From positions 1-64,000 of the forward strand of contig NZ_QGGI01000004.1 in assembly GCF_003148465.1 (NCBI RefSeq): 64,000 nt of DNA, read 5' to 3'. Under the pieces are notes generated by a model, which worked only from the letters and a program-made list of their open reading frames with translations, was not told where the DNA came from and did not search any database. Every line of letters starts with the position of its first letter. The first letter of the stretch is position 1. A program made the position numbers and the translations under genes. Shown in pieces: positions 32,948 to 53,198 of the stretch. The DNA is from Oceanotoga teriensis. GTDB taxonomy: Bacteria; Thermotogota; Thermotogae; Petrotogales; Petrotogaceae.

Positions 32948-32957
32948 GAAACAAACG

Positions 32958-32985
32958 AAAAGCTGGAGAATTTGCTCCAGCTTTT
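32958..32985 (+). terminator. Terminator of the ABC-F gene
   Basis: An 11-bp stem AAAAGCTGGAG / CTCCAGCTTTT followed by a T run. Confidence 0.85.
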
Positions 32986-32989
32986 TGTT

Positions 32990-33348
32990 TTAAATTTTCT
33001 AATAAGTTTCATAAAGAAAAAAAGAATGAAAATACATTTTTATTTTAATCTTTATTATAGATATCTTTAGAATTGTTAAGGAAAAATAAAAAAAATTAAT
33101 CCTTCTTAATAAAACTTATTAAAAAAACATAAAAACTAAAATCCTTTATTATAAAGTATTTTAAAGAAGTTTTATCATGAAACAAAATAAAATTATTGTT
33201 ACGCTATTTGAGAATATTTTATATCATAGTAATTTAAGTCTAAACATTAATACATGTCTATAATTGTCTATAATTAATATTTCACTTGATATAAAATAAT
33301 GTTAAACTTAAGCTGAAATGGTGAAAAAAATTTTTGGAGGGATAAATC
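32990..33348 (+). promoter_or_regulatory. Long AT-rich upstream region of the carbohydrate locus
   Basis: 360 nt without a gene. It contains a perfect tandem repeat of GTCTATAATT (33256-33265 and 33266-33275) and TATAAA/TAAAAT boxes at 33290-33297, 50-60 nt before the first gene. It probably carries the promoter and operator for the 15-kb locus. I could not fix a -35/-10 pair or a ROK operator with confidence. GGAGGG precedes the first start. Confidence 0.4.
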
Positions 33349-34275
33349 TTGAAGAAATTATTTAGCATATTCTTATTGATATTAATAGGGTTAATAGGAT
33401 TTTCACAGTTAGAGGTTAGATCTATTAATATTTCTACAAAGGGTGCAGAAAGAATGCCTTTTATGTTTGAAGATGAACTATATTTTGTTGATCAAAATCA
33501 TGATATAAGAGTGAGCAAATATATAAATGGACAGTTTTCAATGCCAAGAAAAATAAAAGGAGATATAAATACAGAACAAAATGAATTATATCCAAATGTT
33601 TTATTATTAGAAGGAAAAAAAATAATGTATTTTACAAGGTATACTCCTGTAACAGATTATGATGTTTATAAAGCAGAATACAATGAAAATACAGAAGAAT
33701 GGATAAATGTATCTAAAGTTGAAGAGCTTTCAACATCAGAACAAGAATGGGGAATTAGTGTTAGTCCAGATCATAAAAAAGCTTTTGTAACAACTAAAGG
33801 TATTTATAATAATTTATCGAATGTTGGTGGAAGAGATATTTGGATGTTTGAATTTAAAAATGGAAAATGGATAAACCCTATAAATTTAAAAGAAATAAAT
33901 ACATCTTTTGATGAATGGGATGTTTTCTATTATTTAGATAAAAATGAATTATATTTTTCTTCTAAAAGAGATGATTCTTTTGGAGGGTATGATATATATT
34001 CATATTCATTGAATACAAAAAAAATAAATCATTTAGATAGAAATATTAATTCAGATAAAGATGAAAGAAGTTTTTTCAGAAATAAAGATTTAATGATATT
34101 TACAGGAAAATCAAGAGATGATGGACAAGGGGGATATGATTTATTTATTCATAATATAAACCCTGAAGAAATTCATATAGAAAAAACAGAAGAAAAAATT
34201 TCATCAAATATAAATTATGAATATTTTATATTTGCAGGATTAAGTTTATACCTAATACTCAAAAATATTATATAA
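33349..34275 (+). CDS. Exported PD40/WD40-like beta-propeller protein
   Basis: 308 residues. Signal peptide (1-19), then repeated propeller blades with AERMPFMFEDELYF, GKKIMYFTRY, GGRDIWMFE, NELYFSSKRD and GGYDIYSYS, the DIW/DIY-type repeats of TolB/PD40 proteins. A final hydrophobic helix (about 288-305) may anchor it. Paralogous to the protein at 36497. First gene of a long co-oriented locus; a surface or periplasmic binding role is inferred. TTG start behind GGAGGG. Confidence 0.75.
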   Translation: MKKLFSIFLLILIGLIGFSQLEVRSINISTKGAERMPFMFEDELYFVDQNHDIRVSKYINGQFSMPRKIKGDINTEQNELYPNVLLLEGKKIMYFTRYTPVTDYDVYKAEYNENTEEWINVSKVEELSTSEQEWGISVSPDHKKAFVTTKGIYNNLSNVGGRDIWMFEFKNGKWINPINLKEINTSFDEWDVFYYLDKNELYFSSKRDDSFGGYDIYSYSLNTKKINHLDRNINSDKDERSFFRNKDLMIFTGKSRDDGQGGYDLFIHNINPEEIHIEKTEEKISSNINYEYFIFAGLSLYLILKNII

Positions 34276-34295
34276 ATAAAAGGGGGATTTTCTTA

Positions 34296-35411
34296 ATGAA
34301 AAAATTACTTATACCTTTAATAGTTCTCTTGATTTTACTGGTTGGTTGTACAAAGACACCAACAAATGGTCAAGATATGTCGGGATTGAGAATACAAGTT
34401 TCGAATGATTTTATTTCTGATGGAGAGATGGGAGTTCCAGTAAATAGAGAGATTTCATGGAATTCAACAGAAGTTGATAAATATCAAGTTATGCTTAAAG
34501 AAGGAAATGAAACTTTTAAAATAATTGAAGAAACTAAAGCAAAAACATATGCTTTGGAATTAAAAGAAGCTACAAAATATCAATTAAAAATAATAGCTTT
34601 AAAAGATGATAAAAAGGTTGAAACAGATACAGTAGAATTTTTTACAGAAGGTACTTTTACAGCTCTTGAAGAAACAAACATAATGAAATCTATTAATTCT
34701 AAATTTAGTTCTGGTTATGTTAGAATGCCATGGTTTTTAGAAGATAAAATGTTTTTTATTCATACAAGCGGAGGATATAATCTTTATGTAATTCAAAAAA
34801 ATTCTGATGAATCATGGACATCTCCTTTAAAATTACCTTCTGAAATAAATGAAGATGGTAAAAATATTATATCTCCAGCTGTTATTAAAAATGGTGAAAA
34901 TTATAATATTTATTTTTTAAAAAACAATGAAAGCACAAAATATGATGTATATATTGCAGAATATAACTTTGAAAACAATAAAGTTTTAAGTATTGAAAAA
35001 ATAGATTCTTTATCTTCTTCAAATGAGGAATGGGATATTTGGGTTAATGAAAATGAAGATGAAGTTTATTTAACTTCTTATGGACCATTTTCTGGTGTTG
35101 ATTCTGGAAATAGAAGAAGTGTTTGGAAAGGTATTAAAGAAAATAACAATTGGAAAGTTTCCTTAAATGAAGAATTAAATACAGCATATACAAAAACTAT
35201 AAGAAATATATTTAAAATAAATGATAATAAATTCATAATGGATGATTCAGATATTTTTGTGGTTTATAAAACTAATGAAGTATTTAGTGCATATAAAATA
35301 CCTTTAAATATAACAGATAAAAATGAAAGAGAATCATTTTATATGAATGATAAATTATACTTTGTATCATCTGCATCGGGAGCTTATTCCATTTATAGTG
35401 TACAATTTTAA
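34296..35411 (+). CDS. Lipoprotein with FnIII-like and propeller-like regions
   Basis: 371 residues. A lipobox LLVGC with Cys18 marks a lipoprotein. Residues about 40-125 look like a fibronectin III-type domain (EISWNSTEVDKYQVML, TKYQLKIIALKDD). The rest has propeller-like repeats (KMFFIHTSGGYNLYV, EEWDIWVNENEDEVYLTS) related to the flanking propeller genes. Likely attached to the envelope as part of a substrate-capture assembly. Function inferred from context. Confidence 0.7.
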   Translation: MKKLLIPLIVLLILLVGCTKTPTNGQDMSGLRIQVSNDFISDGEMGVPVNREISWNSTEVDKYQVMLKEGNETFKIIEETKAKTYALELKEATKYQLKIIALKDDKKVETDTVEFFTEGTFTALEETNIMKSINSKFSSGYVRMPWFLEDKMFFIHTSGGYNLYVIQKNSDESWTSPLKLPSEINEDGKNIISPAVIKNGENYNIYFLKNNESTKYDVYIAEYNFENNKVLSIEKIDSLSSSNEEWDIWVNENEDEVYLTSYGPFSGVDSGNRRSVWKGIKENNNWKVSLNEELNTAYTKTIRNIFKINDNKFIMDDSDIFVVYKTNEVFSAYKIPLNITDKNERESFYMNDKLYFVSSASGAYSIYSVQF

Positions 35412-35430
35412 ATCAGGAGTTGAAAAATAA

Positions 35431-36414
35431 ATGAAAAAAATAATGCTAATATTGATACTATTGATATCTATAATGAGTTTTTCAAATGTAGACATATCAG
35501 GGACTACAGAGATATTCTATAATTTTAGACCATCTTCAGGTTTGAGTTCAGATGTGGGACTTTGGCTTGATAGAGTTGGTTTAACAGCACAAAGTGATGA
35601 TTATTATGCGAGATTTTATTTAACAAATCAAGATAAAGGTGGATCTATAGGACCAAATCAATTTTATTTTGATCAACTTTATGGAATTTATTCTATAAAA
35701 GATCTCGACATATTTTTTGGTAGAAAAAGATATAGAGATTTTACATTTCAACTTGGAAATTATTCGCTTTCTGAAGAAATGAAACATGGTGGAGATACTT
35801 TTGTAAGTATTCAAAAAGATCTTGGAATGGGATTAAATACAAAATATGGAACATTTTATACAGTTACAAATCCTTCATCACCTTTGATAGCATCATTTTT
35901 ATTTAATGCAGAATATAAAGATATAAAATCAAGTCTTTATTTAGAAAATATCAAAAAAAATGATGAAGATAAAATACAAGGAAAAATTTCAACAAGAAAT
36001 AGAGTAAAATTTGGAGATATACAGATTTCGAATGCTTTTGGATACAATCTATACAATAAAACGACAAAAGAGGGAACTATAACTTCTGTATTATTTTCAG
36101 GAAGAATAAATTTTATGGATTTTGGATTTATATTAGAAACAGATATTACAGATATGAAAAATCCGGTGTATCTCGGAGAAATAGAATATAAAAATGATAA
36201 TAGTCTAAAAGCTGTTGCAAATATTATATATAAAAGTGGAGATACTAATAAAGATGGATTTTTAGATGAGCTTGATAAACATTGGAAAACTGCTTATTGG
36301 GTTGAATATGATATAACTAATAATATCAATTTACAAGCTAAACTCACCTTTGAAAATAAAAATGCTGAAGACAAAGAACCTATGATCCAAGTTAAATTTA
36401 AGTGGTCATTTTAA
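35431..36414 (+). CDS. Outer-membrane beta-barrel-type protein
   Basis: 327 residues. Signal peptide (1-18), then a series of alternating amphipathic strands, ending in KFKWSF with a C-terminal Phe, the usual barrel-assembly signal. The segment TEIFYNFRPSSG and repeated strand-turn patterns fit a porin-like barrel. An EF-hand-like SGDTNKDGFLDELDK lies near 270. It may let the substrate cross the outer sheath. No specific family recognised. Confidence 0.65.
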   Translation: MKKIMLILILLISIMSFSNVDISGTTEIFYNFRPSSGLSSDVGLWLDRVGLTAQSDDYYARFYLTNQDKGGSIGPNQFYFDQLYGIYSIKDLDIFFGRKRYRDFTFQLGNYSLSEEMKHGGDTFVSIQKDLGMGLNTKYGTFYTVTNPSSPLIASFLFNAEYKDIKSSLYLENIKKNDEDKIQGKISTRNRVKFGDIQISNAFGYNLYNKTTKEGTITSVLFSGRINFMDFGFILETDITDMKNPVYLGEIEYKNDNSLKAVANIIYKSGDTNKDGFLDELDKHWKTAYWVEYDITNNINLQAKLTFENKNAEDKEPMIQVKFKWSF

Positions 36415-36442
36415 TTGTAGGCCCGTTTAAACGGGCTTTACA
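36415..36442 (+). terminator. Intra-locus hairpin (terminator or attenuator)
   Basis: GCCCGTTTAAACGGGC core with TTGTA/TACAA flanks directly after the barrel gene. The T tract is short. It may set lower expression of downstream genes or separate two transcription units. Confidence 0.6.
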
Positions 36443-36496
36443 ATTAAACAAATATTTTCATAAAGAAACAAAATATAAAATAATAGGAGAGATTTT

Positions 36497-37321
36497 ATGA
36501 AGAAAAATTTAATTTTTTTAATGCTTTTATTATCAACAATCACAATTTTTTCAAAAGTAAATGTTAAACCTTTAAACATATGTACTACAAAACTTGAGAG
36601 AATGCCCCAAAGAATTGGAAATACTTTATATTTTGTTGCAAATAATTATGATATATACGAAAGTCAATTTGAAAATGGAAAATGGAATAATCCTAAAAAA
36701 GTGAATGGTGAAGTTAATACATCAGCTAATGAAATAAATCCACATGTAATAATTAATAATGGTAAAAAAATAATGTATTTCGCAAGATATACAGATTCTG
36801 ATACAAATTATGACTTTTATAGAGCTGAATTTGATGAAAATAAAAATATTTGGAAAAATGTTCAAACAGTAAATGAACTTAATACTAAAGCTCAAGAATG
36901 GGATATTTGGGTAAATCAAGATGAAACTTTAGCTTATTTTACATCTGCCGGAGAATATGAAGGTTCAAAATCAAAAGGTGGAAGAGATATATGGAAATCT
37001 GAAAAGAAAAATGGGAAATGGTGTACACCAGTTAATGTATCAAAATTAAATGATGAAGGAAATCAATGGTCGGTATTTGTTGATGAATCTGAAAATATTT
37101 ATTTTGATTCTGCAAGAAGTGATGCATTAGGTGGTTATGATATATATGTTTATTTGAAACAAAAAGATGAAATAAAACATTTATCAAGAGATATAAATTC
37201 ATTTTATGATGATAGAGCTATGTCTGTATATGAAAATAAAATTTATTTCACAACAAAAGATAGATCTAATGGTCCTGGATTTTATGATATTTATGAAGGA
37301 GATTTGTCAGGAGGTTTTTAA
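36497..37321 (+). CDS. Exported PD40-like beta-propeller protein, paralogue
   Basis: 274 residues with a signal peptide (1-19). Blade motifs closely parallel those at 33349: LERMPQRIGNTLYFV, GKKIMYFARY, AQEWDIWVNQDE, GGRDIWKSEKKNGKW and GGYDIYVYL. It lacks the C-terminal helix of its paralogue and so is probably soluble in the periplasm. It ends 1 nt before the ROK regulator's start, whose ribosome-binding site lies inside its last codons. Confidence 0.72.
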   Translation: MKKNLIFLMLLLSTITIFSKVNVKPLNICTTKLERMPQRIGNTLYFVANNYDIYESQFENGKWNNPKKVNGEVNTSANEINPHVIINNGKKIMYFARYTDSDTNYDFYRAEFDENKNIWKNVQTVNELNTKAQEWDIWVNQDETLAYFTSAGEYEGSKSKGGRDIWKSEKKNGKWCTPVNVSKLNDEGNQWSVFVDESENIYFDSARSDALGGYDIYVYLKQKDEIKHLSRDINSFYDDRAMSVYENKIYFTTKDRSNGPGFYDIYEGDLSGGF

Positions 37322-38455
37322 TTGATAGAGTTAAGTGAAAAAGAAAAATTAGTTTTACATACAATTTGGAATAAAAAATTTGGAATTTCTCAAACAGATA
37401 TAAAAGATAGTTTGAAAATAAGTAAAGCTACTATATCAAGAGCTGTTAACAAACTTCTTGATTATAAGTTTGTAAAAGAAGGCGAATTAATTCCAACTAA
37501 TTCTAAAGGAAGACCTCAAAAGCTCCTTTTAGTTAATGACAAAAAAATACTTGTATCTGGAATAATGATTAGATCTAATCATTATAATCTTGTTGTTGGA
37601 AATTTGAATGGAGAGATCAAATATTCAGAAAAAATAGATATAAAAAGTATAGACATAATAAAATCAATAAATAATATTCCAAACCATTTAAAAGAAAAAC
37701 TTGGAGAAAAATTTGAAAATATAATGGCTTTTAGTATAGTAACTCCTGGATATGTAAATAAAAAAGATTATACGATAAGAAAAAGTTTTTTTGCAAAAAA
37801 ACAAGAAATTTCTTTTAAAAATTTTATAAATGATTGGCCTATATTATTTCAAATCGAAAATGATGTAAATGCTTCTTTAATAACGAAAATATTATTCGAT
37901 TCAGCTACTTTCAAAAGCACTTTTTATATAGATAAAGGATTTGGTGCTTCTTTTATAATAAACAATAAGTTAATAAGAGGAGAAAAAGGCGGAGAAGGAG
38001 AATTTGGCCATTTTCAGGTAGATCCAAAAGGACCAAAATGTTGGTGTGGAAAGAATGGATGTATTTCAGCTTTTTTTAGTGAGGGATATTTAAAAGAATA
38101 TTATAAAAATATATTACCAAAAACTTATTTGAATCTTGAAAAAAATGTTTTTTTAGATACTCTAAGTGATTTATATAATGAAAGATTTACTGAAATATAT
38201 GTGACAATGTATGAAGAACTTCTTGAAAAATTAGCAAATGCTATAACAAATGTGACTGATTTATTATGCATAGATAATATTATTTTAAATACTATAAATC
38301 CATTTTTTAGAGGTAACTCATATAAATTTTTAAAAGACAAAATAAATGAATATTCATCTAGAAATAATAAAATATTACCTATGATTTTTACAGAAAATGA
38401 AATAAAACAAATACCATTGGCAGTATCTTTAACAAGCCTTATAGGCGAAATATAG
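37322..38455 (+). CDS. ROK-family transcriptional regulator (NagC/XylR type)
   Basis: 377 residues. N-terminal winged helix (SQTDIKDSLKISKATISRAV, 18-37) followed by a ROK sugar-kinase-like domain with GGEGEFGHF and the zinc motif CWCGKNGC. The kinase catalytic region (FQIENDVNASL) retains Asn-Asp. These regulators release DNA on binding a sugar or sugar phosphate, so this is the likely local repressor. TTG start, AGGAGG 7 nt upstream. Confidence 0.9.
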   Translation: MIELSEKEKLVLHTIWNKKFGISQTDIKDSLKISKATISRAVNKLLDYKFVKEGELIPTNSKGRPQKLLLVNDKKILVSGIMIRSNHYNLVVGNLNGEIKYSEKIDIKSIDIIKSINNIPNHLKEKLGEKFENIMAFSIVTPGYVNKKDYTIRKSFFAKKQEISFKNFINDWPILFQIENDVNASLITKILFDSATFKSTFYIDKGFGASFIINNKLIRGEKGGEGEFGHFQVDPKGPKCWCGKNGCISAFFSEGYLKEYYKNILPKTYLNLEKNVFLDTLSDLYNERFTEIYVTMYEELLEKLANAITNVTDLLCIDNIILNTINPFFRGNSYKFLKDKINEYSSRNNKILPMIFTENEIKQIPLAVSLTSLIGEI

Positions 38456-38471
38456 ACAAGGGGGTAGTAGC

Positions 38472-39710
38472 ATGAAAAAAATATTGACAGTATTTTTAGC
38501 TATAACTTTAATGAGTATAGCCTTTTCAAAAACTACATTAGTTCATTGGATGCATCATTCACCTAAGAGAGCAGAAATAATATATGAAATGTCTGAAGAA
38601 TTTATGAAAGAAAATCCAGATGTAGAAATAGTTATACAATCTATTCCATATTCGGAATATAAAACAAAATTACTCGCAGCTATTGCAGCTGGTAGTGGAC
38701 CTGATGTGGCACAAATACCAGCAGAAGCAATAGAGGAATTTTATAATTATCAAATAATTCAACCATTTCCAGAAGATATAGTTTCATCTAAAGAAATGTT
38801 AGAAAAAAATATAGAGCCAGCTGTAAAAAATTTGATAATTGATGATGAAGTATATGGCTTACCTACAGATATTCAAACAATAGTTTTATTTTATAATCCA
38901 TATCTTTTTGAAAAAGCAGGATTAGATCCTGATAAAGCTCCAGAAGATTGGAATGAATTGATAGATTTTGCAAAAAAAACAACAGTTTGGGAAAATGATA
39001 AGATGATAGAAAGTGGATGGGGAATTGCAGGTTATCATCCGGTTTTAGAAAGTTTTATGCGTTCAGCAGGAGCAACATTTTGGGCAGATGGAGATAAAAA
39101 ACAAATAAAACTTGAACAAGCTCAGATAGATACATACGAATTTTTTAGAAAAGCGATAGAAGAAGACAAAGTATATACACCAAAATTTGGTTCAAGATGG
39201 ACAGGATTTAGACAAATAAAAGAAGCTATGGTTTTTGGACATGGTGCTATGGTAGGTTCTTTTAAAGTTGGAGGACATCCAGATCTCATTTTTAAAACAG
39301 CTCCAATACCTAAAAATCCAACAACAGGAAAAAGAATAACTTCATTAACAAGTTGGTCATTAGTTATAATGGATGATTGTCAAGAATCAGAAGCAGCGGC
39401 AAAATGGTTGAAATTTATAACTTCAGAAGATTCTCAAAAATTATGGCTTGAACAAACAGGAGAATTACCTTCATTAAAATCAGTTATAAATGATCCTAAA
39501 TATAAAAATGATGAATTATTTGGACCTATACTCGATTCTTTGAGTTATGCAGAACCAACATTCTCAAAAGGTTGGGCAAACCCTGCTGGCATGATGAGAG
39601 AAGTAGGCTATAATGAAATATTAAATAAGGGAGTACCTGTTAAAGAAGCAGCAGAAAAAGTTGTAGAACAAATAAATATTTATTTAGATGAAACATTCTC
39701 ACAATTTTAA
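38472..39710 (+). CDS. Sugar ABC transporter, extracellular solute-binding protein
   Basis: A 412-residue family 1 solute-binding protein with a Sec signal peptide (1-19) and no lipobox. Typical motifs: LLAAIAAGSGPDVAQIP, VYGLPTDIQTIVLFYNP and the late PSLKSV. Close in type to maltose/UgpB-like binders; the ligand is not deducible. It begins the transporter unit; a hairpin after its stop could raise its expression over the permeases. Confidence 0.92.
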   Translation: MKKILTVFLAITLMSIAFSKTTLVHWMHHSPKRAEIIYEMSEEFMKENPDVEIVIQSIPYSEYKTKLLAAIAAGSGPDVAQIPAEAIEEFYNYQIIQPFPEDIVSSKEMLEKNIEPAVKNLIIDDEVYGLPTDIQTIVLFYNPYLFEKAGLDPDKAPEDWNELIDFAKKTTVWENDKMIESGWGIAGYHPVLESFMRSAGATFWADGDKKQIKLEQAQIDTYEFFRKAIEEDKVYTPKFGSRWTGFRQIKEAMVFGHGAMVGSFKVGGHPDLIFKTAPIPKNPTTGKRITSLTSWSLVIMDDCQESEAAAKWLKFITSEDSQKLWLEQTGELPSLKSVINDPKYKNDELFGPILDSLSYAEPTFSKGWANPAGMMREVGYNEILNKGVPVKEAAEKVVEQINIYLDETFSQF

Positions 39711-39712
39711 AT

Positions 39713-39734
39713 AATGGCCCCATAAGGGGCTATT
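39713..39734 (+). promoter_or_regulatory. Hairpin between binding-protein and permease genes
   Basis: AATGGCCCC / GGGGCTATT, one G-U pair, with only a weak T tract. Such hairpins often protect the binding-protein mRNA and reduce read-through into permeases. Confidence 0.55.
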
Positions 39735-39749
39735 ATATGGAGGTATACA

Positions 39750-40991
39750 ATGAAATTATTCAATAAAAATCTTAATATATTATATATCCCAGGTATTCTT
39801 ATAACTTTTATAGGTATGTTTTTACCAATTATTGCAGATAAAAAAATAATGTTTCTAAAAGATTTTAATTTCTTGGGACTTTCTTTTATCTATGTGTTTT
39901 TAGCTTTAATAATAGCAAATATCATTATTAATTTTACAAAAAAAAGAAAATTAATAATGATAGTATCTTTTTTACAATTGTTTTTTGTAATGTATTTACC
40001 ATTTCTTGTAAAACAATGGAAATATGCATATAGAGCGAAATTTGTTTTGAACTTTTTTGAAAAAGCAAATTTTGGTTGGTATTTTTTATTGATTGGAAGT
40101 ATATTTTTAATAATATATTCTTTTAAATTATTTTCTAAAAAACAAACAATACCATATATGTTCATAACACCTATGGTATTTGGAGTAAGTTTCTTAACAT
40201 TTTTCCCAGCAATATTTGCTGTGATAATAAGTTTTAGAAAATGGAATATATTAATTCCAAATAAACCTTTTATAGGATTAGATAACTTTGTAAAAGCTTT
40301 TACAGATGAATATTTTTTAAATTCCTTATGGATAAGTTTTAAGTATGCATTGGCAGTTATACCAACAAAAATAATAATATCATTTTTATTTGCATATCTT
40401 ATATATTCTTTACCTAAATTCAAAGGTTTTTTTAGAGTAGTGTATTTTTTACCTACAGTTACATCCGTAGTTGCAGTAAGTGTTATATGGAATTGGATAT
40501 ATCATCCATACTATGGACTTGCAAATTATATTATAGGATTATTTGGAATGAAACCTGTAGATTGGCTTGGAGATCCATCAATAGCTATATGGGCTGTTGC
40601 AGCTGTTTCTATTTGGAGAGGACTTGGTTATGATATTATAATATTCCTTTCTGGATTAAATGATATACCAGAAGCTATTCTTGAAGCATCAGAAATAGAT
40701 GGAGCAACGAGATGGCAAAAATTTTGGAAAATAATAATTCCTCAAGTAAAACCATCTTTAATATTAATATTTATAACATCTACTATAGGTGCTATACAAG
40801 TATTCTCTGAAATATATATGATGACTGGTGGTAATGCTGATACAAAAACAGCAGTTTATTATATATGGGAATATGGTTTTAGCAGACTTCAAATGGGATA
40901 TGCAAGTGCAATGTCATTGATACTTTTTGCTATTATATTAACTATAACACTCATTCAAATGAGAGTCACCAAGCTTCTCAAGGAGGATTGA
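39750..40991 (+). CDS. Sugar ABC transporter permease, MalF-like with extra N-terminal helices
   Basis: 413 residues, about 100-130 longer than minimal MalF/UgpA permeases. Four extra hydrophobic helices (about 10-130) precede the core permease, which starts near TIPYMFITPMVFG. The ATPase-docking EAA loop is EASEIDGATRWQKFWKIIIP. Overlaps the next gene by 4 nt. Confidence 0.92.
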   Translation: MKLFNKNLNILYIPGILITFIGMFLPIIADKKIMFLKDFNFLGLSFIYVFLALIIANIIINFTKKRKLIMIVSFLQLFFVMYLPFLVKQWKYAYRAKFVLNFFEKANFGWYFLLIGSIFLIIYSFKLFSKKQTIPYMFITPMVFGVSFLTFFPAIFAVIISFRKWNILIPNKPFIGLDNFVKAFTDEYFLNSLWISFKYALAVIPTKIIISFLFAYLIYSLPKFKGFFRVVYFLPTVTSVVAVSVIWNWIYHPYYGLANYIIGLFGMKPVDWLGDPSIAIWAVAAVSIWRGLGYDIIIFLSGLNDIPEAILEASEIDGATRWQKFWKIIIPQVKPSLILIFITSTIGAIQVFSEIYMMTGGNADTKTAVYYIWEYGFSRLQMGYASAMSLILFAIILTITLIQMRVTKLLKED

Positions 40992-41830
40992 TTATGAGAT
41001 CCAAGAAAAAAAGTGAAAGATTATTTTATATCATATGTTATGTAGTTTTATCATTATTTGCTGTTGTTATGATAATGCCATTTATATGGATGATACTCTC
41101 AACATTTAAACCACAGAATGAATTAATGACATTTCCACCCAAATTTTTTCCAAAACATTTTACCTTAGACAATTATAAAGAGGTATTAACAACAGTACCC
41201 TTTTTTAAATATTATTTAAATTCACTTTTAGTAACAACTGTATCAGTTATTTTAGTATTATTTACTTCATCAACAGCTGGATTTGCATTTGCAAAATATC
41301 AGTTTAAAGGAAAAAATCAAATATTTAAATTATTGGTTAGTGCTATGATGATACCTTTTCCTGTAACTATAATTCCATTATATATAATGATATATACATT
41401 AGGATTGGTAGATTCATATATAGCCTTAATAATAACTGGTATAGTTAGTATATTTGGAACATTTTTAATGAGACAATTCATATTAGGAATTCCGAATGAT
41501 TTATTAGATGCAGCTCGTATAGATGGATGTAATGAATGGATGGTATATAGAAAAATAATACTTCCAAATATAAAACCTGTATTATCTGCATTAGCTATAT
41601 TTTCATTCATGGGTGTTTGGAATGCTTTTCTATGGCCATTATTAGTTGTTAATGGAGATAAACATAGAACAGTTCAACTTGGGGTACAATATTTTACCCA
41701 ACAATATGGAGATCTCGTACATCTTCAAATAACTGCAGCTGCAATGGCTGTATTACCAATAATAATATTATATTTATTTTTACAAAAACAATTTATAAAA
41801 GGAATAACAATGACGGGTTTGAAAGGATAG
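40988..41830 (+). CDS. Sugar ABC transporter permease, MalG-like
   Basis: 280 residues, six membrane helices. EAA loop DAARIDGCNEWMVYRKIILP. Forms the transmembrane pore with the preceding permease. No ATPase gene lies in this locus, so a shared MsmX/UgpC-type ATPase encoded elsewhere is expected. Confidence 0.93.
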   Translation: MIMRSKKKSERLFYIICYVVLSLFAVVMIMPFIWMILSTFKPQNELMTFPPKFFPKHFTLDNYKEVLTTVPFFKYYLNSLLVTTVSVILVLFTSSTAGFAFAKYQFKGKNQIFKLLVSAMMIPFPVTIIPLYIMIYTLGLVDSYIALIITGIVSIFGTFLMRQFILGIPNDLLDAARIDGCNEWMVYRKIILPNIKPVLSALAIFSFMGVWNAFLWPLLVVNGDKHRTVQLGVQYFTQQYGDLVHLQITAAAMAVLPIIILYLFLQKQFIKGITMTGLKG

Positions 41831-41838
41831 TGTTTTAA

Positions 41839-42918
41839 ATGAAAAAATTTTTATCTTTAATAATAATATTAAGCTTAATGATAGTATCTTATGCAAAACC
41901 TAAAAATGTTATTGTAATAATGGGAGATGGCATGGGATATAATCATGTGTTATTATCTGAACTTTTATGTCAAGCAAATAATCTGGAGATAGCAACAAAA
42001 AACTTTCAAGTTGCTTCTCTCGTAAGAAATGATACTCTTGATAATGTGGTAACAGATTCTGGTGCGGCTGCAACAGCTTTTTTTTGTGGAGAAAAAACAA
42101 AATTACAGTATGTTGGAATGGATAAAGAACAAAAATCTTTAGATTCTCTTGGAAGAATATTAAAAAGAGAAGGTTATAAGGTTGGTTTAATTACAAATAC
42201 AAGATATTATGATGCAACGCCAGCGGGTATTTATGCACATGCACATAGAAGAGATACAGAAAAAATTACTAAAGATCTTGTTTCTTCTAATTTTATGGAT
42301 TTTTTTGTAGCAGGAGGATTTGAAAAATTAGGAGTAAATCCTTTTACTATGAAACCAAAAAAAGATTCTGAATTAAAAAAAATAAATGAAAATGGTTATA
42401 AAGTATATGGTAATAATTATGAATTATTGTTTGATTCAAATCAAGAAAGGTTTATGGCTTTTGTAGCCCCTGGAGATAAAAATTTTGAAAATGAATTAAT
42501 AACAGGAGAATTACCTTTTATAGATGTTGTCGAGAAAACAGTAGAAAAAATAAAAGACGATCAACCTCTTTTTATGTTTGTTGAAGCTGGGAGAATAGAT
42601 GATGCTTCTCATATAAATAATACAGAAGCTGTTAAAAGTGAATTATTAATGTTCCAAAAAATTGTAAATTATTTAACAAAAGAATTTAATCCTGAAGAAA
42701 CATTGTTTATAATATTTGCCGATCATGAAACAGGAGGATTGTCTATTTTTAGTTCTACTGTTGATGGAAGTGATATAACAATAAAATGGAATCATACAGA
42801 TCATACAGGCACATATGTTCCATTTTTAACCTATGGAAATTCTAAAGATATATTCCCAAAACAAATGCATCTTGAAAATGTCAAGGATGTACTTCTCAAA
42901 ACATTAGAGGTGGAATAA
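41839..42918 (+). CDS. Exported alkaline phosphatase
   Basis: 359 residues with a signal peptide (1-19). Alkaline phosphatase signature complete: Asp30 in MGDGMG, nucleophile Ser74 in TDSGAAATA, FVEAGRIDDASH, FADHETGG and HTDHTGTYVPF. It removes phosphate from monoesters in the periplasm. Its place after a sugar importer suggests release of sugar or alcohol from phosphorylated substrates. The stop overlaps the next ATG by 1 nt. Confidence 0.9.
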   Translation: MKKFLSLIIILSLMIVSYAKPKNVIVIMGDGMGYNHVLLSELLCQANNLEIATKNFQVASLVRNDTLDNVVTDSGAAATAFFCGEKTKLQYVGMDKEQKSLDSLGRILKREGYKVGLITNTRYYDATPAGIYAHAHRRDTEKITKDLVSSNFMDFFVAGGFEKLGVNPFTMKPKKDSELKKINENGYKVYGNNYELLFDSNQERFMAFVAPGDKNFENELITGELPFIDVVEKTVEKIKDDQPLFMFVEAGRIDDASHINNTEAVKSELLMFQKIVNYLTKEFNPEETLFIIFADHETGGLSIFSSTVDGSDITIKWNHTDHTGTYVPFLTYGNSKDIFPKQMHLENVKDVLLKTLEVE

Positions 42919-43682
42919 TGAAAAAAATATTATTTTTAATAAGTTTAATAACTTTATTTACAATTAGTTTTGCAACTCCATTAAAAGTGATGACATACAA
43001 TATAAGACATGGACTTGGCGTAGATGATAAATTAGATTTTCAAAGAGTTATTGATGTAATAAAAGATCAAGATCCAGATATATTAATGATTCAAGAAGTA
43101 GATGAAGGAAGAGCAAGAAGCTACGGTTTAAGGCAAGCAAAGATAATTTCTAAAGAAACTGGAATGGACTATTATTTTTATGCTACAGAAGGTAAGAGAG
43201 ACTATGGAATAGCAGTTTTAAGCAAATTTAAACCAATAGAAAAATTTGGATATGATTTACCACAACCAAAATGGATGAAAGCTGTTCAAAGGGGAGCGGC
43301 TTCTATGATAATAGATGTAAATGGTCAAGAAGTAATGATAGTAAGCTTACATTTAGGCCTTGGAGGAATACAAGAAATTCAAACAGAATTGATGGAAGCT
43401 TATGAAGTTTCAAAAAAATATAATATTCCAACATTAATAGCTGGAGATTTCAATGTGGAATATTTTAATCTACAAACAGGAGTTATTGAATTTATGAAAG
43501 ATTTTAAATCTGTAAATCATACAATAGATAAACAATTAAACACAATTCCAGCAGATAATCCAGGCCCTCAAATAGATTTTATTTTTTATTCAAACGATGA
43601 TTTTAAAATAAAAGATGTATACACAGTATCTTCTTATGCATCGGATCATCTTCCAGTTATAGCTGAGGTAGAATTGAAATGA
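42918..43682 (+). CDS. Exported endonuclease/exonuclease/phosphatase-family enzyme (1)
   Basis: 254 residues with a signal peptide (1-19). EEP fold: MTYNIRHG, MIQEVDEG (catalytic Glu), AGDFNVEY and SDHLPVI at the end. The family includes sphingomyelinases, inositol polyphosphate phosphatases and nucleases; context favours a phosphodiesterase acting on a small or glycan phosphodiester. Overlaps its paralogue by 4 nt. Confidence 0.85.
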   Translation: MKKILFLISLITLFTISFATPLKVMTYNIRHGLGVDDKLDFQRVIDVIKDQDPDILMIQEVDEGRARSYGLRQAKIISKETGMDYYFYATEGKRDYGIAVLSKFKPIEKFGYDLPQPKWMKAVQRGAASMIIDVNGQEVMIVSLHLGLGGIQEIQTELMEAYEVSKKYNIPTLIAGDFNVEYFNLQTGVIEFMKDFKSVNHTIDKQLNTIPADNPGPQIDFIFYSNDDFKIKDVYTVSSYASDHLPVIAEVELK

Positions 43683-44527
43683 AAATCAAAGATAAAGTAT
43701 TTATATTATTTATAATACTTTTTGGAGGATTTTATATGAATGCTCAAGATATAACATTTTTTAAAGAAGATATAAAAATAAAAGTTATGACTTATAACAT
43801 AAGAGGTGGAAAAAGTTATCCAGATAATGTACAAAATTTAGAAAATATAATAAAAACTATAGAGAAAGATTCACCAGATATATTAATGCTTCAAGAAGTC
43901 GGTTATAGAGAAAGAATAAATTGGTTTGAATATAAAGAGCAAAAAGGGCAAGAACAAACAAAAATAATAGCTGAAAAATTTGGAATGGATTATTATTTTT
44001 ATTTAACAGAAAATACAGATTATTTTGGAAATGCAATATTATCAAAATATCCAATAAAAGAAAAATTTGGATATGATCTTCCTTTACCAACTAATTTGAC
44101 CTCAGAAGAACAAAAAAAAGCTTGGCAAAGAGGAGCTGTTGGATTAATTATAGATGTTAATGGTGTTGAAATAATGGTTATAAGTACTCATTTAGGTCTT
44201 TTAGGAATTAAAGAGGTAAAATCAGAGTTAAATGAAATATATAAAAGATCTATAAATTCAAATATGCCAGTTTTAATAGCGGGAGATTTTAATCTTGAAT
44301 ATGAAGAAATAAAATCTAATCTTTCTGCGATGTTTTATGATTTTGGATCTGTAAACCATGAAATAAATAAACGATTAAAAACAATACCATCTACAAATCC
44401 TAATAGGCAGATAGATTATATACTTGCGACAAAAAAAGATTTTAATATATATGACTGTAAGACAATATCCTCTCAAGCATCAGATCATATCCCTATTATA
44501 AGCATATTGGGGGTTAAAAAAAATTGA
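43679..44527 (+). CDS. Exported endonuclease/exonuclease/phosphatase-family enzyme (2)
   Basis: 282 residues, tandem paralogue of the preceding protein with the same motif order: signal peptide (about 1-22), MTYNIRGG, MLQEVGYR, AGDFNLEY, SDHIPII. A roughly 15-residue insertion (WFEYKEQKGQEQ) follows the catalytic Glu. Duplication with divergence suggests two related phosphoesters or successive steps. Confidence 0.83.
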   Translation: MKIKDKVFILFIILFGGFYMNAQDITFFKEDIKIKVMTYNIRGGKSYPDNVQNLENIIKTIEKDSPDILMLQEVGYRERINWFEYKEQKGQEQTKIIAEKFGMDYYFYLTENTDYFGNAILSKYPIKEKFGYDLPLPTNLTSEEQKKAWQRGAVGLIIDVNGVEIMVISTHLGLLGIKEVKSELNEIYKRSINSNMPVLIAGDFNLEYEEIKSNLSAMFYDFGSVNHEINKRLKTIPSTNPNRQIDYILATKKDFNIYDCKTISSQASDHIPIISILGVKKN

Positions 44528-45597
44528 AAAAACTTTTATTTGTTACTATAGATTCTCTTGGAAATGATTTAATTGAAAAATCTAATGCAAAATTTATAAA
44601 AGAAATATTAAAAAATGGAAATACAATAAAAAATGTAAAAACAGCATTTCCTTCTCTAACAACACCTATGATGACAACCATATTGACTGGAAAGTATCCA
44701 TTTGAACATGGCATATATTCAAATTCTGTATATGATTTTGAAAAAAATAAAGTTATAGGAAAATTGAGAGATATAAAAGTTCCAACAATATCAGAAATAT
44801 TGATGGAAAAAGGATATAAAACATTATCTGTACAACATTTTATGCTTGAAAATAGATGTGATAAATACATACAAATAGATGGATCAAAACCAGAAAATAA
44901 TACAAATTCAATAATAAAAGAATTAGATCAAAAAAATTATGATGCAATATTCACTATATATCAAAGTGTTGATTCTATTGGACATAAATATGGTGCCATG
45001 AGTAAAAAAAGAATAAATGAATTAGAAAAAGTAGATTCAGAACTTGAAAGATTATATGAATATCTCAATAAAAAATGGGGAGATTTTTTATTAGTAATAA
45101 ATTCAGACCATTCTATGAGTTCATTTGAAAATCATAGCGATTTTTCTATAATAGAATTTATGGAAAAATTTGGATTTAAAGGAGATTTCTATGAACCAGG
45201 AAATGAAATACCTGAAAACTTAGATTATATAATTATTAGACAACCTACTGTACAGATATATTTAATAAGTAAGAAAGCTAAAATATTAAAAAAGAATATA
45301 ATAAAAGATTTAAATGAAATAGAAGATATTGCAGAAGTATATGATCAAATAAAATTAAAAGAATTAAAAAATGAACACTTATGTGATATTGCTTACACTT
45401 TAAAAAGAGGCTACACTAATAATATAAGTAATATTTTGTTAAAGATAAGAAAGTTTGGATATCATGGAACATTCGAAGAAAACAATGCAATAATAAGTTT
45501 TTATGAAAATGGAATAAAAAAAGAAAATCTTAAGGGTTATGATTTAACTATAATACTTAATAAAACACTTGAACATCTTGAATTGAGTATTAATTGA
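44524..45597 (+). CDS. Cytosolic type I phosphodiesterase / nucleotide pyrophosphatase-family enzyme
   Basis: 357 residues, no signal peptide. Alkaline phosphatase-superfamily NPP signature: first Asp in TIDSLG, nucleophile Thr in FPSLTTPMMTTILTGKYP, SVDSIGHKYG, NSDHSM and FGYHGTF for the bimetal site. It would cleave phosphodiesters or pyrophosphates inside the cell. TTG start with GGGGG 10 nt upstream; ATGA-like coupling (TTGA) with the EEP gene. Confidence 0.8.
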   Translation: MKKLLFVTIDSLGNDLIEKSNAKFIKEILKNGNTIKNVKTAFPSLTTPMMTTILTGKYPFEHGIYSNSVYDFEKNKVIGKLRDIKVPTISEILMEKGYKTLSVQHFMLENRCDKYIQIDGSKPENNTNSIIKELDQKNYDAIFTIYQSVDSIGHKYGAMSKKRINELEKVDSELERLYEYLNKKWGDFLLVINSDHSMSSFENHSDFSIIEFMEKFGFKGDFYEPGNEIPENLDYIIIRQPTVQIYLISKKAKILKKNIIKDLNEIEDIAEVYDQIKLKELKNEHLCDIAYTLKRGYTNNISNILLKIRKFGYHGTFEENNAIISFYENGIKKENLKGYDLTIILNKTLEHLELSIN

Positions 45598-45614
45598 GGA
45601 GATGATTTTATAAA

Positions 45615-46376
45615 ATGAACCCTAAATACGACTTACACATGCACACATTCTATTCAGATGGTTCACAAAGCTTTGAAGACATATTGAAAAAAGTAAAAGA
45701 AATAGGTCTTAAATGTTTTGGAGTTACCGACCATTATGAAGTAGGACATAATTATACAGTAAAAGAAAATCCTGAAAAGTATTATGCACATTTTTTAAAA
45801 ATAAAAGAAGAAGCAGAAAAATTTGGAATAACAGCTTTAATAGGAGCCGAAATAGGATTCAATGATTTAGAACTTCTTAAACCAAAAAATCTTCCAGAGA
45901 TTGATTATATAATAGGTAGTGTACATCAAATGCCTCAAGAACTCGAAGAAAAAGAATATTGGAATTTATATAGAAAATATTTAGAAAATGCAGTTACAAA
46001 ATATGATTTCCAAATACTTGGTCATGCTGAAGGATATCTTCCAGTCAATAAATTTATGAAATCTGGAAGTAATTTTGAAGATAGAAGAAAATATGAAAAA
46101 ATAATTGCAAAAAAATATTTTTCATTAGAATGGTATAAAGATTTGGCAAAAGAAATGAACAAAAATGAAATTGCACTTGAAATACATGAAATGTCAGAAT
46201 CACCACGATTAGAAGTCATAAATTTGATGATTGAAAATGGTGTAAAACTAACATACGGAACAGATTCTCATGCAAATTATCAATTGGCTAAAAGAGATTA
46301 TTTTAAAAAAGTTCTCAATGAATTAGAATTAAATGATGAAAACTTTTTAGACATAGAGGCAGTTAGGAGGAAATAA
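45615..46376 (+). CDS. PHP-domain phosphoesterase (histidinol-phosphatase-like)
   Basis: 253 residues. PHP metal sites: DLHMHTFYSDG at the N-terminus, TDHYEVGH, GAEIGF, HQMPQ, LGHAEGY and the late GTDSHANY. No signal peptide. The histidine-biosynthesis reading is unlikely here, since no his gene is nearby. More probably it dephosphorylates a sugar or polyol phosphate produced by the neighbouring phosphodiesterase. Confidence 0.8.
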   Translation: MNPKYDLHMHTFYSDGSQSFEDILKKVKEIGLKCFGVTDHYEVGHNYTVKENPEKYYAHFLKIKEEAEKFGITALIGAEIGFNDLELLKPKNLPEIDYIIGSVHQMPQELEEKEYWNLYRKYLENAVTKYDFQILGHAEGYLPVNKFMKSGSNFEDRRKYEKIIAKKYFSLEWYKDLAKEMNKNEIALEIHEMSESPRLEVINLMIENGVKLTYGTDSHANYQLAKRDYFKKVLNELELNDENFLDIEAVRRK

Positions 46377-46378
46377 AA

Positions 46379-47380
46379 ATGTTAAATATAGGATTAATAG
46401 GTTGTGGTATGATGGGAAAAGTTCATACCAACGCATATAAAAATCTAAAAGATGTAGATTTTAATGTAAAATATGTTTCAGATTTTATAAAAGAAAAATC
46501 TGATTTTTGTGAAAAAGAATTAAATACTTCAACAGCAACATTTGAAGAAATAATAAATGATGAAGAAATAGATGTTATAGATCTATGTACACCTACTTAT
46601 ACACATAAAGATTTAGCTATAAAAGCTGCAAAAAAAGGTAAAAATATATTTTGTGAAAAACCAATAGCATTAAATGAAAAAGATGCACAAGAAATAATAG
46701 ATGTTTGTAAAGAAAATAATGTAAAACTCATGATAGGACATGTAGTTAGATTTTTTCCTGAATATAAAAAAGCAAAAATGTTAATAGAAAACAATGAAAT
46801 AGGAAAAGCTACTATAGCGAGATTTTATAGAGGTGGTGTATATCCATCTCATGGAATAGATAATTGGTTTAATGATTTAGAAAAAAGTGGAGGAGTATTT
46901 GTAGATCTTTCAATACATGATTTTGATTTTCTAAGAACAATATTTGGAGAAATAGAATCAATAGAAGCAAGAAGTGCAAAAATATCTTATGGAAATATAA
47001 AAAATTTTGATCATGGAACTGCAATATTAAAATTCAAAAATGGAAAAATAGCTCATGTAGAAGGAAGTTGGGCAGAACCAGAAAATATGCCTATTAATTT
47101 CAAAACTGATTATGAAATATTTGGTGATGATGGAATGTTAAACTATGATTCTGAAAAGAGTTTAACATTTAGAATACAAAAAAACAAACAATATACAAGA
47201 ATGAACCCTTCAAATATAAATCCATATATGGAAGAAATAAAAGCATTTTTATTGAGTGTTATTAACAATGAAGAACCGCCAGTAAGTGGAGAAGAAGCAT
47301 TAAAATCATTAAAAATAGCCTTAGCAGCAAATAAATCTGCCAAAGAAAAAAGAACCATTTGTTTTGAGGAGATGAATTAA
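46379..47380 (+). CDS. Gfo/Idh/MocA-family oxidoreductase (1)
   Basis: 333 residues. Rossmann start GLIGCGMMGKVH, then CEKPIAL with the conserved Lys-Pro, and the C-terminal alpha/beta domain with GGVFVDLSIHDFD. NAD(P)-dependent oxidation or reduction of sugars or polyols such as myo-inositol. Follows the PHP gene by 2 nt, so tightly co-transcribed. Confidence 0.9.
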   Translation: MLNIGLIGCGMMGKVHTNAYKNLKDVDFNVKYVSDFIKEKSDFCEKELNTSTATFEEIINDEEIDVIDLCTPTYTHKDLAIKAAKKGKNIFCEKPIALNEKDAQEIIDVCKENNVKLMIGHVVRFFPEYKKAKMLIENNEIGKATIARFYRGGVYPSHGIDNWFNDLEKSGGVFVDLSIHDFDFLRTIFGEIESIEARSAKISYGNIKNFDHGTAILKFKNGKIAHVEGSWAEPENMPINFKTDYEIFGDDGMLNYDSEKSLTFRIQKNKQYTRMNPSNINPYMEEIKAFLLSVINNEEPPVSGEEALKSLKIALAANKSAKEKRTICFEEMN

Positions 47381-47381
47381 T

Positions 47382-48359
47382 ATGATTAAAGTAGGTATAC
47401 TCGGAATAGCACATATGCATGGATATTCTTATGTAAATCAGTTAAAACAATTAAATGATGTAGAAATTGTTGGAGTCTTTGACAGAGATGAAGAAAAAGC
47501 TATGAAGGCATCAGAGACATTAAATATAAAAAAATATGATGATTATAATAAATTAATAGAAGAATCAGACTCTATTATAATAGCTTCAGAAAATTCATAT
47601 CATAAAGAATATACAATAGCTTCAGCAAAACAGAAAAAAAATATATTATGTGAAAAGCCAATAGCTACAAATATAGAAGATGCTGAAGAGATGATAAAAG
47701 TATGTGAAGAAAATGATGTAATATTACAAATAGCTTTTCCTGTAAGATATGCTCCATCAGTATTTGAACTAAAAAAAATAATTGAAAATGATGAAATTGG
47801 AGAAATAGTATCAATAAGTTCAACTAATCATGGAAGAATGCCTGGTGGATGGTTTATACAAAAAGAATTGAGTGGTGGAGGTTCTGTAATAGATCATACA
47901 GTTCATGTCGTTGATGTTATAAGATGGGTATTAAATACAGAAATAAAAGGTGTTTCATGCAAAAAAAATACATTAAATCATGATATAAACGTTGAAGATT
48001 CAGGCCTTTTGATGATGGAACTTGAAAATGGAGCATTCATGACATTAGATTCAAGTTGGTCATATCCAAATAATCATCCTTATTGGGGAGATGTAAGAAT
48101 AAGAATTGTAGGAACAAAAGGAACAATAAATTTAGATGTGTTTGATCCCAAGGTGACAAAGTATCTTAATTCTGGAACAAAATATGAAAATTATGCAGAT
48201 AATTTTGATTATCTTTTGATAAAAGATTTTATAAATAATGTTAAAACAAACAATAAAAATCCTTTAACTTCTGGTAAAGATGGCCTTGAAGCTTTAAGAG
48301 TAGCTGTTTGGGCGTATAAAAGTTCAGAAAAAAATAATTTTTTAAATATAAAAAAATAA
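47382..48359 (+). CDS. Gfo/Idh/MocA-family oxidoreductase (2)
   Basis: 325 residues. GILGIAHMHGYSY (Rossmann turn modified, His rather than the second Gly), CEKPIAT and GGGSVIDHTVHVVD with the catalytic His. Lies 1 nt after the previous oxidoreductase. Two different family members in tandem suggest sequential redox steps, for example oxidation and re-reduction at different carbons. Last gene of the locus. Confidence 0.88.
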   Translation: MIKVGILGIAHMHGYSYVNQLKQLNDVEIVGVFDRDEEKAMKASETLNIKKYDDYNKLIEESDSIIIASENSYHKEYTIASAKQKKNILCEKPIATNIEDAEEMIKVCEENDVILQIAFPVRYAPSVFELKKIIENDEIGEIVSISSTNHGRMPGGWFIQKELSGGGSVIDHTVHVVDVIRWVLNTEIKGVSCKKNTLNHDINVEDSGLLMMELENGAFMTLDSSWSYPNNHPYWGDVRIRIVGTKGTINLDVFDPKVTKYLNSGTKYENYADNFDYLLIKDFINNVKTNNKNPLTSGKDGLEALRVAVWAYKSSEKNNFLNIKK

Positions 48360-48360
48360 A

Positions 48361-48385
48361 AAATAGCTCCTTTAAGGAGCTATTT
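48361..48385. terminator. Bidirectional terminator
   Basis: A 12-bp stem AAATAGCTCCTT / AAGGAGCTATTT between the convergent oxidoreductase genes ending at 48359 (+) and 48380 (-). Confidence 0.85.
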
Positions 48386-49624
48386 TATAAAAGAATTTTT
48401 AAATTTTAAATAGTCTATATTACTTTTATTAATTCTTGAAATTTCAGCTGCTTCAGCCATAAAATGACTTTCAATCAAATTAAAATAATCTATATTTTTA
48501 TTTGAATCAATGAAGTTTATAAAAAAATCCATCAATTTAAAATCAGAACCATTATGAGCAGAAACATATTCTGGTTTTATGTTTATAATCTCTTTAGTAT
48601 CATTTATGAAATCAAATATTTCTATTATATTCTTTTCAAAATTTCCAATTATTTCTCCATGTGAACCACTTATTTTTATTATTCTTGTCTTATCATGAGT
48701 AAATGCATTTAATTTAAATACAACATTTATACCATCTTCAAATTCCATAAAAACTGTTTGATTATCTAAAACATTGTTATCACATGTATAAACACATGTT
48801 CCATATTGTGTGTTCTTTAATGCATTTAACCTTCCTTCATAAGATAAATCATTAGTTATTGTATCAACAGGCCATCCTTTTAATTCCATATTTAGATATA
48901 ATTTCTTTGCCGAATAAGGACATTCTTCTTCTACTGAACATTCTAAGCATTTATCAGAAGAGTTGTTAGGTTTATTAATAGAATTAAAAAGACTTAAATT
49001 TCCATAAGAAAATATAGACTTACATGGTTTATCAATTAACCATTGAATTATATCTAAATCATGACAACTTTTTGTTAAAATTATAGATGCCGTTTCAATA
49101 GAATTATTCCATCTTCCTCTAACATAACTATGAGCCATATGAAAATATCCAATATTTTCATTTTGTTCAATTGAGATTATTTTTCCTATTTTATTATTTT
49201 TTATAAGATTTTTTATTTCAGAATAAAACTCTGAGAATCTTAAAACATAACATGGCATTATAAAACGTTTTAATTCTTTAGCTTTTTTTATAATTTCTAC
49301 AGAATCTTCTATATTTGTAGAAACGGGCTTTTCTATTAGAATATCATAACCAAGTTTTAAAAATTCTAAAGCAGGTTCTTTGTGAAGTTTATCCATAGTA
49401 GAAATTACTACAAAATCGGCTATTTTACCAAATTTAATCAAATTTTTCCAATCTTTTACACTATAATTTTCATCTATATTATGTAATTTTTTAAAATATT
49501 CTCTTTTAAATTCATCAGGTTCAGCAACTGCAATAAATTTTAATTTTTCTTTTTTTTCAATAGCATAAGCACCATAAGCATGTATACCCCTTTGTCCGGC
49601 ACCGATAAGAATAGCACTTTTCAT
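48380..49624 (-). CDS. Gfo/Idh/MocA-family oxidoreductase (3) with Cys cluster
   Basis: 414 residues, longer than the other two. GAGQRGIHAYG Rossmann motif, EKPVSTN, and LTKSCHDLDIIQW with the catalytic His. An insertion holds CLECSVEEECPYSAKKLY, a Cys-rich segment seen in a subgroup of this family. Facing the locus, with its own leader. It may act on the same substrate or belong to another pathway. Confidence 0.85.
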   Translation of the reverse strand: MKSAILIGAGQRGIHAYGAYAIEKKEKLKFIAVAEPDEFKREYFKKLHNIDENYSVKDWKNLIKFGKIADFVVISTMDKLHKEPALEFLKLGYDILIEKPVSTNIEDSVEIIKKAKELKRFIMPCYVLRFSEFYSEIKNLIKNNKIGKIISIEQNENIGYFHMAHSYVRGRWNNSIETASIILTKSCHDLDIIQWLIDKPCKSIFSYGNLSLFNSINKPNNSSDKCLECSVEEECPYSAKKLYLNMELKGWPVDTITNDLSYEGRLNALKNTQYGTCVYTCDNNVLDNQTVFMEFEDGINVVFKLNAFTHDKTRIIKISGSHGEIIGNFEKNIIEIFDFINDTKEIINIKPEYVSAHNGSDFKLMDFFINFIDSNKNIDYFNLIESHFMAEAAEISRINKSNIDYLKFKNSFIK

Positions 49625-52094: not shown

Positions 52095-52352
52095 TCAATC
52101 TTCAAAAGAATTAATTAAATCAGTTAAAGCTGAAATAGCTTCATTTTCATCTGCTCCATTAGCGATTAATTTTATTTCAGTTCCTTGAGTTACACCTAAA
52201 GATAAAACTGAAAGAATTGATTTTGCATTTATAGATTTTCCATTAGCCTCTAATTTGATATCACAATTAAAAGAAGCTGCCTTTTGTGAGAATAATGCTG
52301 CTGGTCTTGCATGTAATCCTGTCTTGTTTTTAATTTTTAAAGTTTTTTCCAT
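52095..52352 (-). CDS. ptsH: HPr phosphocarrier protein
   Basis: 85 residues. His15 in TGLHARPAA accepts phosphate from enzyme I. The regulatory Ser46-type site lies in INAKSILSVLSLG, so HPr kinase control is possible. Its start overlaps the end of the EIIBA gene by 23 nt, and its GGAGGAG lies inside that gene. Confidence 0.96.
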   Translation of the reverse strand: MEKTLKIKNKTGLHARPAALFSQKAASFNCDIKLEANGKSINAKSILSVLSLGVTQGTEIKLIANGADENEAISALTDLINSFED

Positions 52353-53091: not shown

Positions 53092-53104
53092 AATCACTCC
53101 CCCT

Positions 53105-53186: not shown

Positions 53187-53198
53187 AAAATATTTATA

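Follow-up and report, generated by a model that had tools for sequence, protein, structure and literature searches.

A conserved candidate locus for phosphoester-bearing sugars or polyols, accompanied by exported propellers, in Oceanotoga teriensis and related Thermotogota

We analysed a 64,000-nucleotide stretch of the Oceanotoga teriensis genome (contig NZ_QGGI01000004.1, positions 1 to 64,000; hereafter the window), and in it a locus that combines exported beta-propeller proteins, a ROK-family regulator, a sugar-type importer and a set of phosphoesterases. It is best read as a variant of the ROK/CUT1 sugar-catabolic locus in which phosphoesterases of several superfamilies replace glycosidases. 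Judged from gene content, it would be a self-contained, ROK-regulated catabolic locus, present in some Thermotogota and directed at a small compound that resembles a sugar or polyol and bears phosphomonoester and phosphodiester groups, a reading to which we give a probability of roughly 0.55. By sequence comparison the locus has a conserved ten-gene core, accompanying propellers and a palindromic site shared by both of its predicted units. It offers a regulon that is both compact and testable (a single operator, ROK protein and importer, and five enzyme classes) for a phosphorylated carbon source in anaerobic Thermotogota, and the ligand of its solute-binding protein (SBP) would show which phosphoester compound these bacteria scavenge.

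Gene content and conserved order

The locus (33349-48359) consists of 15 co-oriented plus-strand open reading frames (ORFs), and a purine-rich stretch resembling a ribosome-binding site precedes each gene. The genes and the signals around them are as follows.

32953..32990, +, upstream intrinsic terminator separating the locus from an ABC-F-like gene (16-bp stem; dG -22.9, z -7.4)
33169..33189, +, palindrome copy 1, GTTTTATCATGAAACAAAATA, candidate ROK site before prop1
33349..34275, +, prop1, exported beta-propeller, hydrophobic near its C-terminus
34296..35411, +, lipoprop, lipoprotein with a propeller domain (lipobox LVGC, in ...LLVGC)
35431..36414, +, putative outer-membrane barrel, lineage-specific
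36415..36448, +, hairpin, probable terminator between units (dG -19.7, z -6.2; no long T-run after it)
36455..36475, +, palindrome copy 2, TTTTCATAAAGAAACAAAATA, before prop2, 2 mismatches
36497..37321, +, prop2, exported beta-propeller of the family conserved with the cassette
37322..38455, +, ROK-family regulator (PF00480, E 6e-31)
38472..39710, +, SBP, CUT1 type (PF01547)
39711..39742, +, hairpin between SBP and permF (dG -18.5, z -4.1)
39750..40991, +, permF, ABC permease of UgpA/MalF type
40988..41830, +, permG, ABC permease of GlcU/UgpE type
41839..42918, +, ALP, exported alkaline phosphatase (PF00245, catalytic motifs)
42918..43682, +, EEP1, exported enzyme of the endonuclease/exonuclease/phosphatase (EEP) fold
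43679..44527, +, EEP2, exported paralogue of EEP1
44524..45597, +, PDE, cytosolic NPP-type phosphodiesterase (PF01663, E 5e-34)
45615..46376, +, PHP-domain phosphoesterase (PF02811, motifs)
46379..47380, +, Gfo1, Gfo/Idh/MocA oxidoreductase 1
47382..48359, +, Gfo2, Gfo/Idh/MocA oxidoreductase 2
48360..48386, no strand assigned, terminator-like hairpin at the locus end (dG -15.1)
48380..49624, -, GFO3, convergent Gfo/Idh/MocA oxidoreductase

Pfam searches recovered the ROK protein, the CUT1 SBP, two permeases, the alkaline phosphatase, two EEP enzymes, the NPP-type phosphodiesterase, the PHP protein and two Gfo/Idh/MocA oxidoreductases. Catalytic residues are retained in ALP, both EEPs, PDE, PHP and the Gfo proteins, and the metal and Thr residues of PDE are invariant in the aligned relatives. 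Signal-type N-termini were found on all three propellers, of which lipoprop is a lipoprotein, and on the putative barrel, SBP, ALP, EEP1 and EEP2, while PDE, PHP, Gfo1 and Gfo2 carry no export N-terminus. Neither a glycoside hydrolase nor a sugar kinase was found among the Pfam and NCBIfam matches of the locus proteins. An earlier annotation made from the letters of this DNA (the sequence-only reading) had described 15 co-oriented genes with such signal peptides and activity classes, and the ORFs, Pfam matches and catalytic residues bear this out. It had also described many junctions as overlaps of 1-4 nt. Four such overlaps exist (4 nt at permF/permG, EEP1/EEP2 and EEP2/PDE; 1 nt at ALP/EEP1); the other junctions are 0 nt (prop2/ROK) or gaps of 1-2 nt (PHP/GFO1/GFO2) or 8-82 nt, and the second half of the locus has short or overlapping ones. 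The sugar ABC importer of that reading is present as an SBP with two permeases but without an ABC ATPase gene in the locus; the only OB_MalK-type ATPase of the genome is encoded on a different contig and could serve the importer. The best solved relatives of the SBP are sugar binders. The strong hairpin between SBP and permF (39711-39742) is typical of differential expression inside importer operons.

Sixty relatives were searched with prop2, EEP1 and SBP, and every ORF in the retrieved regions was compared by BLAST. Five genomes from a single related genus, namely G024-G027 and, with a shortened GFO2, G032, have the full order ROK-SBP-permF-permG-ALP-EEP1-PDE-PHP-GFO1-GFO2, and three further genomes (G007, G033 and G089) show the same order in pieces at contig ends. 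This ten-gene order is kept at 32-84% protein identity across several Thermotogota families. Two genomes, G003 and G009, keep SBP to PHP; there ROK, GFO1 and GFO2 are replaced by a divergent ROK-Gfo-TIM-Gfo set on the opposite strand, and a second, exported phosphodiesterase is added. The earlier annotation had offered synteny of a propeller-barrel-ROK-ABC-phosphatase order as a check; of this order the ROK-ABC-phosphatase part is conserved in relatives. SBP identity in relatives is 54-69%, and no close SBP homologue (E<=1e-60) was found in the other searched families of the class. Among 103 Thermotogota genomes PDE occurs in 11, the propeller in 9 and both in 8 (Fisher P=6e-9, a value that overstates independence because the genomes are related). 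When 84,980 species genomes were scanned, PDE turned up only in Thermotogota metagenome-assembled genomes (MAGs) and in one MAG contig labelled Marinimicrobia; the scan relies on exact short peptide patterns, so that distant members could be missed. That contig (L064, labelled Marinimicrobia 46_43) has the cassette order of the f2/g11 Thermotogota loci, and is probably mis-binned. We found no description of the cassette in the open-access papers searched; subscription papers lay outside the coverage.

A shared palindrome and the place of the propellers

Side-by-side comparison of upstream regions yielded a palindrome, GTTTCA-NNN-TGAAAC-AAAATA, which was scored in each case with a matrix built from the other genomes only (leave-genome-out). 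In the 64-kb window the copy at 33169 ranks first (22.6 bits) and that at 36455 second (18.1), followed by a third match at 11.4; the maxima of six random sequences were 10.3-16.1. Copy 1 is the sole palindrome with at most one mismatch in the 2.79-Mb genome, and across 15 genomes all such palindromes (7/7) lie at the cassette, against an expectation from composition, at the GC content of the window, of 0.075 per genome. Only close copies were taken as evidence, because chance copies with two or three mismatches occur in every genome. In three relatives the propeller gene is preceded by two copies at a distance of ~151 bp from each other, and G007 has one copy before ROK. In G011 an isolated propeller-phosphoesterase gene has a two-mismatch copy ~140 bp upstream. 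A two-mismatch copy on contig C3, inside an ORF, was set aside as chance. The divergent ROK/SBP intergenic regions L049:5857-6375 and L050:5928-6440 contain a different, perfect palindrome (ATATTTTTA-GTT/GAT-TAAAAATAT), which may serve the replacement ROK as its operator.

The strong hairpin after the barrel gene and the second palindrome copy before prop2 suggest that the locus probably comprises two tandem units under one regulator. Since the palindrome precedes both halves, its close copies are confined to the cassette and a copy lies at the isolated propeller-phosphoesterase gene, the propellers and the importer/phosphatase genes most likely form one regulon. The sequence-only reading had proposed a single envelope-to-cytosol locus, and the conserved synteny, the co-occurrence of the propeller and the near-exclusive, shared operator-like site agree with it. 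Absence of linkage in relatives, or separate units with unrelated induction, would have spoken against that proposal; as judged from sequence, the conserved synteny and the shared palindrome point the other way.

The AlphaFold2 model of prop2 is a propeller (pLDDT 85, pTM 0.84). None of the propellers has a confident Pfam match, and none matches a phytase in Pfam. Foldseek returned generic propellers for prop2 (paraoxonase, GH43, GH62) at ~6-15% identity and TM ~0.5, matches that give no functional call. In relatives we found an exported protein of 1,140-1,170 amino acids in which a propeller is followed by a middle, OB-like part, by a stretch resembling TolB and, at the C-terminus, by a calcineurin-like phosphoesterase (PF00149, E 1e-17). 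Its genes, which encode about 1,160 amino acids, are at L066:4295-7804, L051:15002-18487 and L059:5967-9446. We found no functional description of this fusion in the open literature, subscription papers again lying outside the coverage. Nothing else in the genome of the window species matches the fusion beyond its propeller, so this species appears to be without that enzyme. By their linkage and fusion in these sequences, the propellers belong with the phosphoesterases and not with the barrel, and the fusion is a new envelope component for study.

The barrel candidate has a signal peptide and a C-terminus ending in F (...QVKFKWSF). It has no Pfam match and its single-sequence AlphaFold2 model is uninformative (pLDDT 31), so the label outer-membrane barrel, which the sequence-only reading had applied, is unproven. 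A barrel homologue was present in 0/60 relatives, which makes a conserved propeller-barrel capture layer unlikely. The SusCD-like capture layer suggested earlier for propellers and barrel is accordingly not upheld; in relatives the fusion partner of the propeller is a phosphoesterase.

Substrate and rival explanations

With ALP and the EEPs outside, PDE, PHP and the Gfo proteins inside, and glycosidase and kinase absent, the gene content suggests that the substrate is a sugar or polyol bearing phosphoester groups. The exported EEPs and alkaline phosphatase would remove phosphate groups in the envelope, as would the propeller-fused calcineurin-like phosphoesterase in relatives, where the propellers would bind or position the substrate. 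The compound, fully or partly trimmed, would enter through the CUT1 importer, driven by the shared off-locus MalK-type ATPase. In the cytosol PDE and the PHP enzyme would take off the remaining phosphate, and the Gfo/Idh/MocA pair would oxidise and rearrange the carbon skeleton. The ROK protein would repress (less likely activate) both units through the palindrome until an inducer appears, and the barrel would be an addition specific to this lineage that might act as a diffusion pore. A bolder proposal, which we hold only tentatively, is an undescribed catabolic system, reaching from envelope to cytosol, for a sugar or cyclitol that contains a phosphodiester; in it, exported propellers, either free or fused to a phosphoesterase, would present substrate to phosphoesterases of several superfamilies and to the CUT1 importer. 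Such a system would correspond to a polysaccharide utilisation locus built on phosphoesterases.

Scavenging of an inositol phosphodiester is an unlikely alternative, in which glycerophosphoinositol or di-myo-inositol phosphate would yield inositol for oxidation by Gfo1 as an inositol dehydrogenase. The PDE profile does match ENPP enzymes, and both Gfo proteins find their best PDB match in 3ezy ('Dehydrogenase'), which we take to be Thermotoga maritima TM0414/IolG. The best NCBIfam match of Gfo1 is IolG (TIGR04380), at 215 bits against a cut-off of 355. Its catalytic Lys-Asp-His triad is present (K94, D176 and H180, invariant), but the position of motif III, GF[MN]RR[YF]D in IolG (PMC9603128), reads GHVVRFFP. 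Motif V, YGY in one IolG subgroup (PMC9603128), is also missing, a weak part of the test because some true inositol dehydrogenases are without YGY. IolD was not found above cut-off anywhere in the genome, and the cassette has neither IolE nor an inositol kinase; with IolD only below cut-off, the canonical inositol pathway was rejected.

Scavenging of extracellular nucleic acids or nucleotides, with an EEP nuclease, ALP and the metallophosphatase as nucleotidases and import of the sugar moiety, is rather improbable. The EEP fold includes nucleases, and cAMP phosphodiesterase and an ExeM/NucH nuclease region both match the fusion below cut-off. Yet the best alignments of the EEP1 profile are to sphingomyelinase-like and uncharacterised EEP structures, nucleosidase, nucleoside permease and deoxyribose enzymes are absent from the cassette, and the Gfo proteins would be unexplained.

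Uptake of glycerol phosphate or of glycerophosphodiesters from phospholipid head groups, as by the Ugp system, seemed quite improbable. Like the locus, Ugp pairs a CUT1 importer with a cytosolic phosphodiesterase, here one whose profile matches ENPP6 and ENPP7, enzymes that act on choline lipids; the best match of permF is UgpA, and the second-best matches of SBP and permG are Ugp models. However, Ugp has the GDPD-family UgpQ and the ATPase UgpC, whereas PDE belongs to PF01663 and the ATPase lies elsewhere, and the locus differs further in its exported phosphatases and in two sugar-type Gfo proteins, which would be left without a role. In UgpB two Tyr and two Ser coordinate phosphate and are conserved in UgpB, GPC- and U3G-binding proteins (PMC12718374). 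With E. coli UgpB positions related through an alignment to the Phaeobacter numbering that the paper uses, all six cassette SBPs showed E89 replaced by A/G/S, S144 by Q, S270 by H, G307 by S/N, Y346 by E and W195 by Y. In SBP numbering, Y65 is kept as Y63, and Q135, H257 and E331 stand for S144, S270 and Y346, in all six proteins. With most ligand residues, including the phosphate-binding ones, replaced, UgpB-type glycerophosphodiester uptake is not supported.

Two unrelated adjacent operons, one for surface propellers and barrel and one for sugar and phosphatase genes, would fit the hairpin between barrel and prop2 and the propeller-free core of G003 and G009, but are very improbable given the operator common to both units and to the isolated propeller-phosphoesterase gene, the co-occurrence of propeller and PDE, and the fusion itself.

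Several points weigh against the phosphoester sugar or polyol locus as we describe it. The enzyme core of G003 and G009 lacks propellers, an orthologous ROK and the palindrome at the cassette; the propellers are therefore not indispensable. Of the UgpB ligand residues only Tyr and Arg are kept throughout the cassette SBPs, and the SBP may bind an unphosphorylated sugar, which would leave the cytosolic PDE and PHP unexplained. The ROK protein is a candidate binder of the palindrome, by co-occurrence. Since most UgpB ligand residues are missing from the SBP, and the IolG substrate motifs from Gfo1, the sequence indicates neither glycerophosphodiester nor inositol specificity, and it is the substrate class that we infer. 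The earlier suggestion of a phosphoester sugar or polyol that is trimmed outside, imported and oxidised is still the best inference; a glycerophosphoinositol-like identity is not supported by those residues and motifs.

Related systems and neighbouring genes

In the locus a ROK protein with a helix-turn-helix adjoins a CUT1 importer and catabolic genes, downstream of a locus-specific, operator-like palindromic site. ROK-controlled sugar regulons of Thermotoga include the IolR-InoEFGK inositol locus (PMC3750489). They have in common with our locus a ROK regulator, a CUT1-type importer, a Gfo dehydrogenase, a locus-specific operator and their occurrence in Thermotogota. The locus differs from IolR-InoEFGK in the missing substrate motifs of Gfo1 and the restricted distribution of its SBP. 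We know of no phosphoesterase battery in the Thermotoga regulons. The SusCD loci of Bacteroidota likewise encode envelope proteins with catabolic enzymes; they place a SusC TonB-dependent transporter next to a SusD lipoprotein, whereas our locus has an ABC importer and no glycoside hydrolase, and no locus protein matches SusC or SusD in Pfam. Propellers of the TolB/PD40/PorE type resemble those of the locus in being short and exported and in their GGYDIY-like motifs, and the locus propellers have a sub-cut-off match to PorE and CHU_0125. They differ in lacking an OmpA domain and in being fused, in relatives, to TolB-like and metallophosphatase parts.

The convergent GFO3 has 61% identity to cassette-adjacent genes in L049 and L050, and by this comparison belongs to the neighbourhood of the locus in relatives too; in both, the homologue adjoins a TIM-barrel epimerase-like gene. 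Elsewhere in the window, translations inspected by eye include a histidine-utilisation-like set on the minus strand (4182-9015; urocanase, imidazolonepropionase, formiminotransferase and cyclodeaminase). By the same inspection, phosphotransferase system components are interleaved with antiterminator-like genes and a glycoside hydrolase family 1-like gene (52330-62935), and a zinc-importer-like set lies at 54286-57197.

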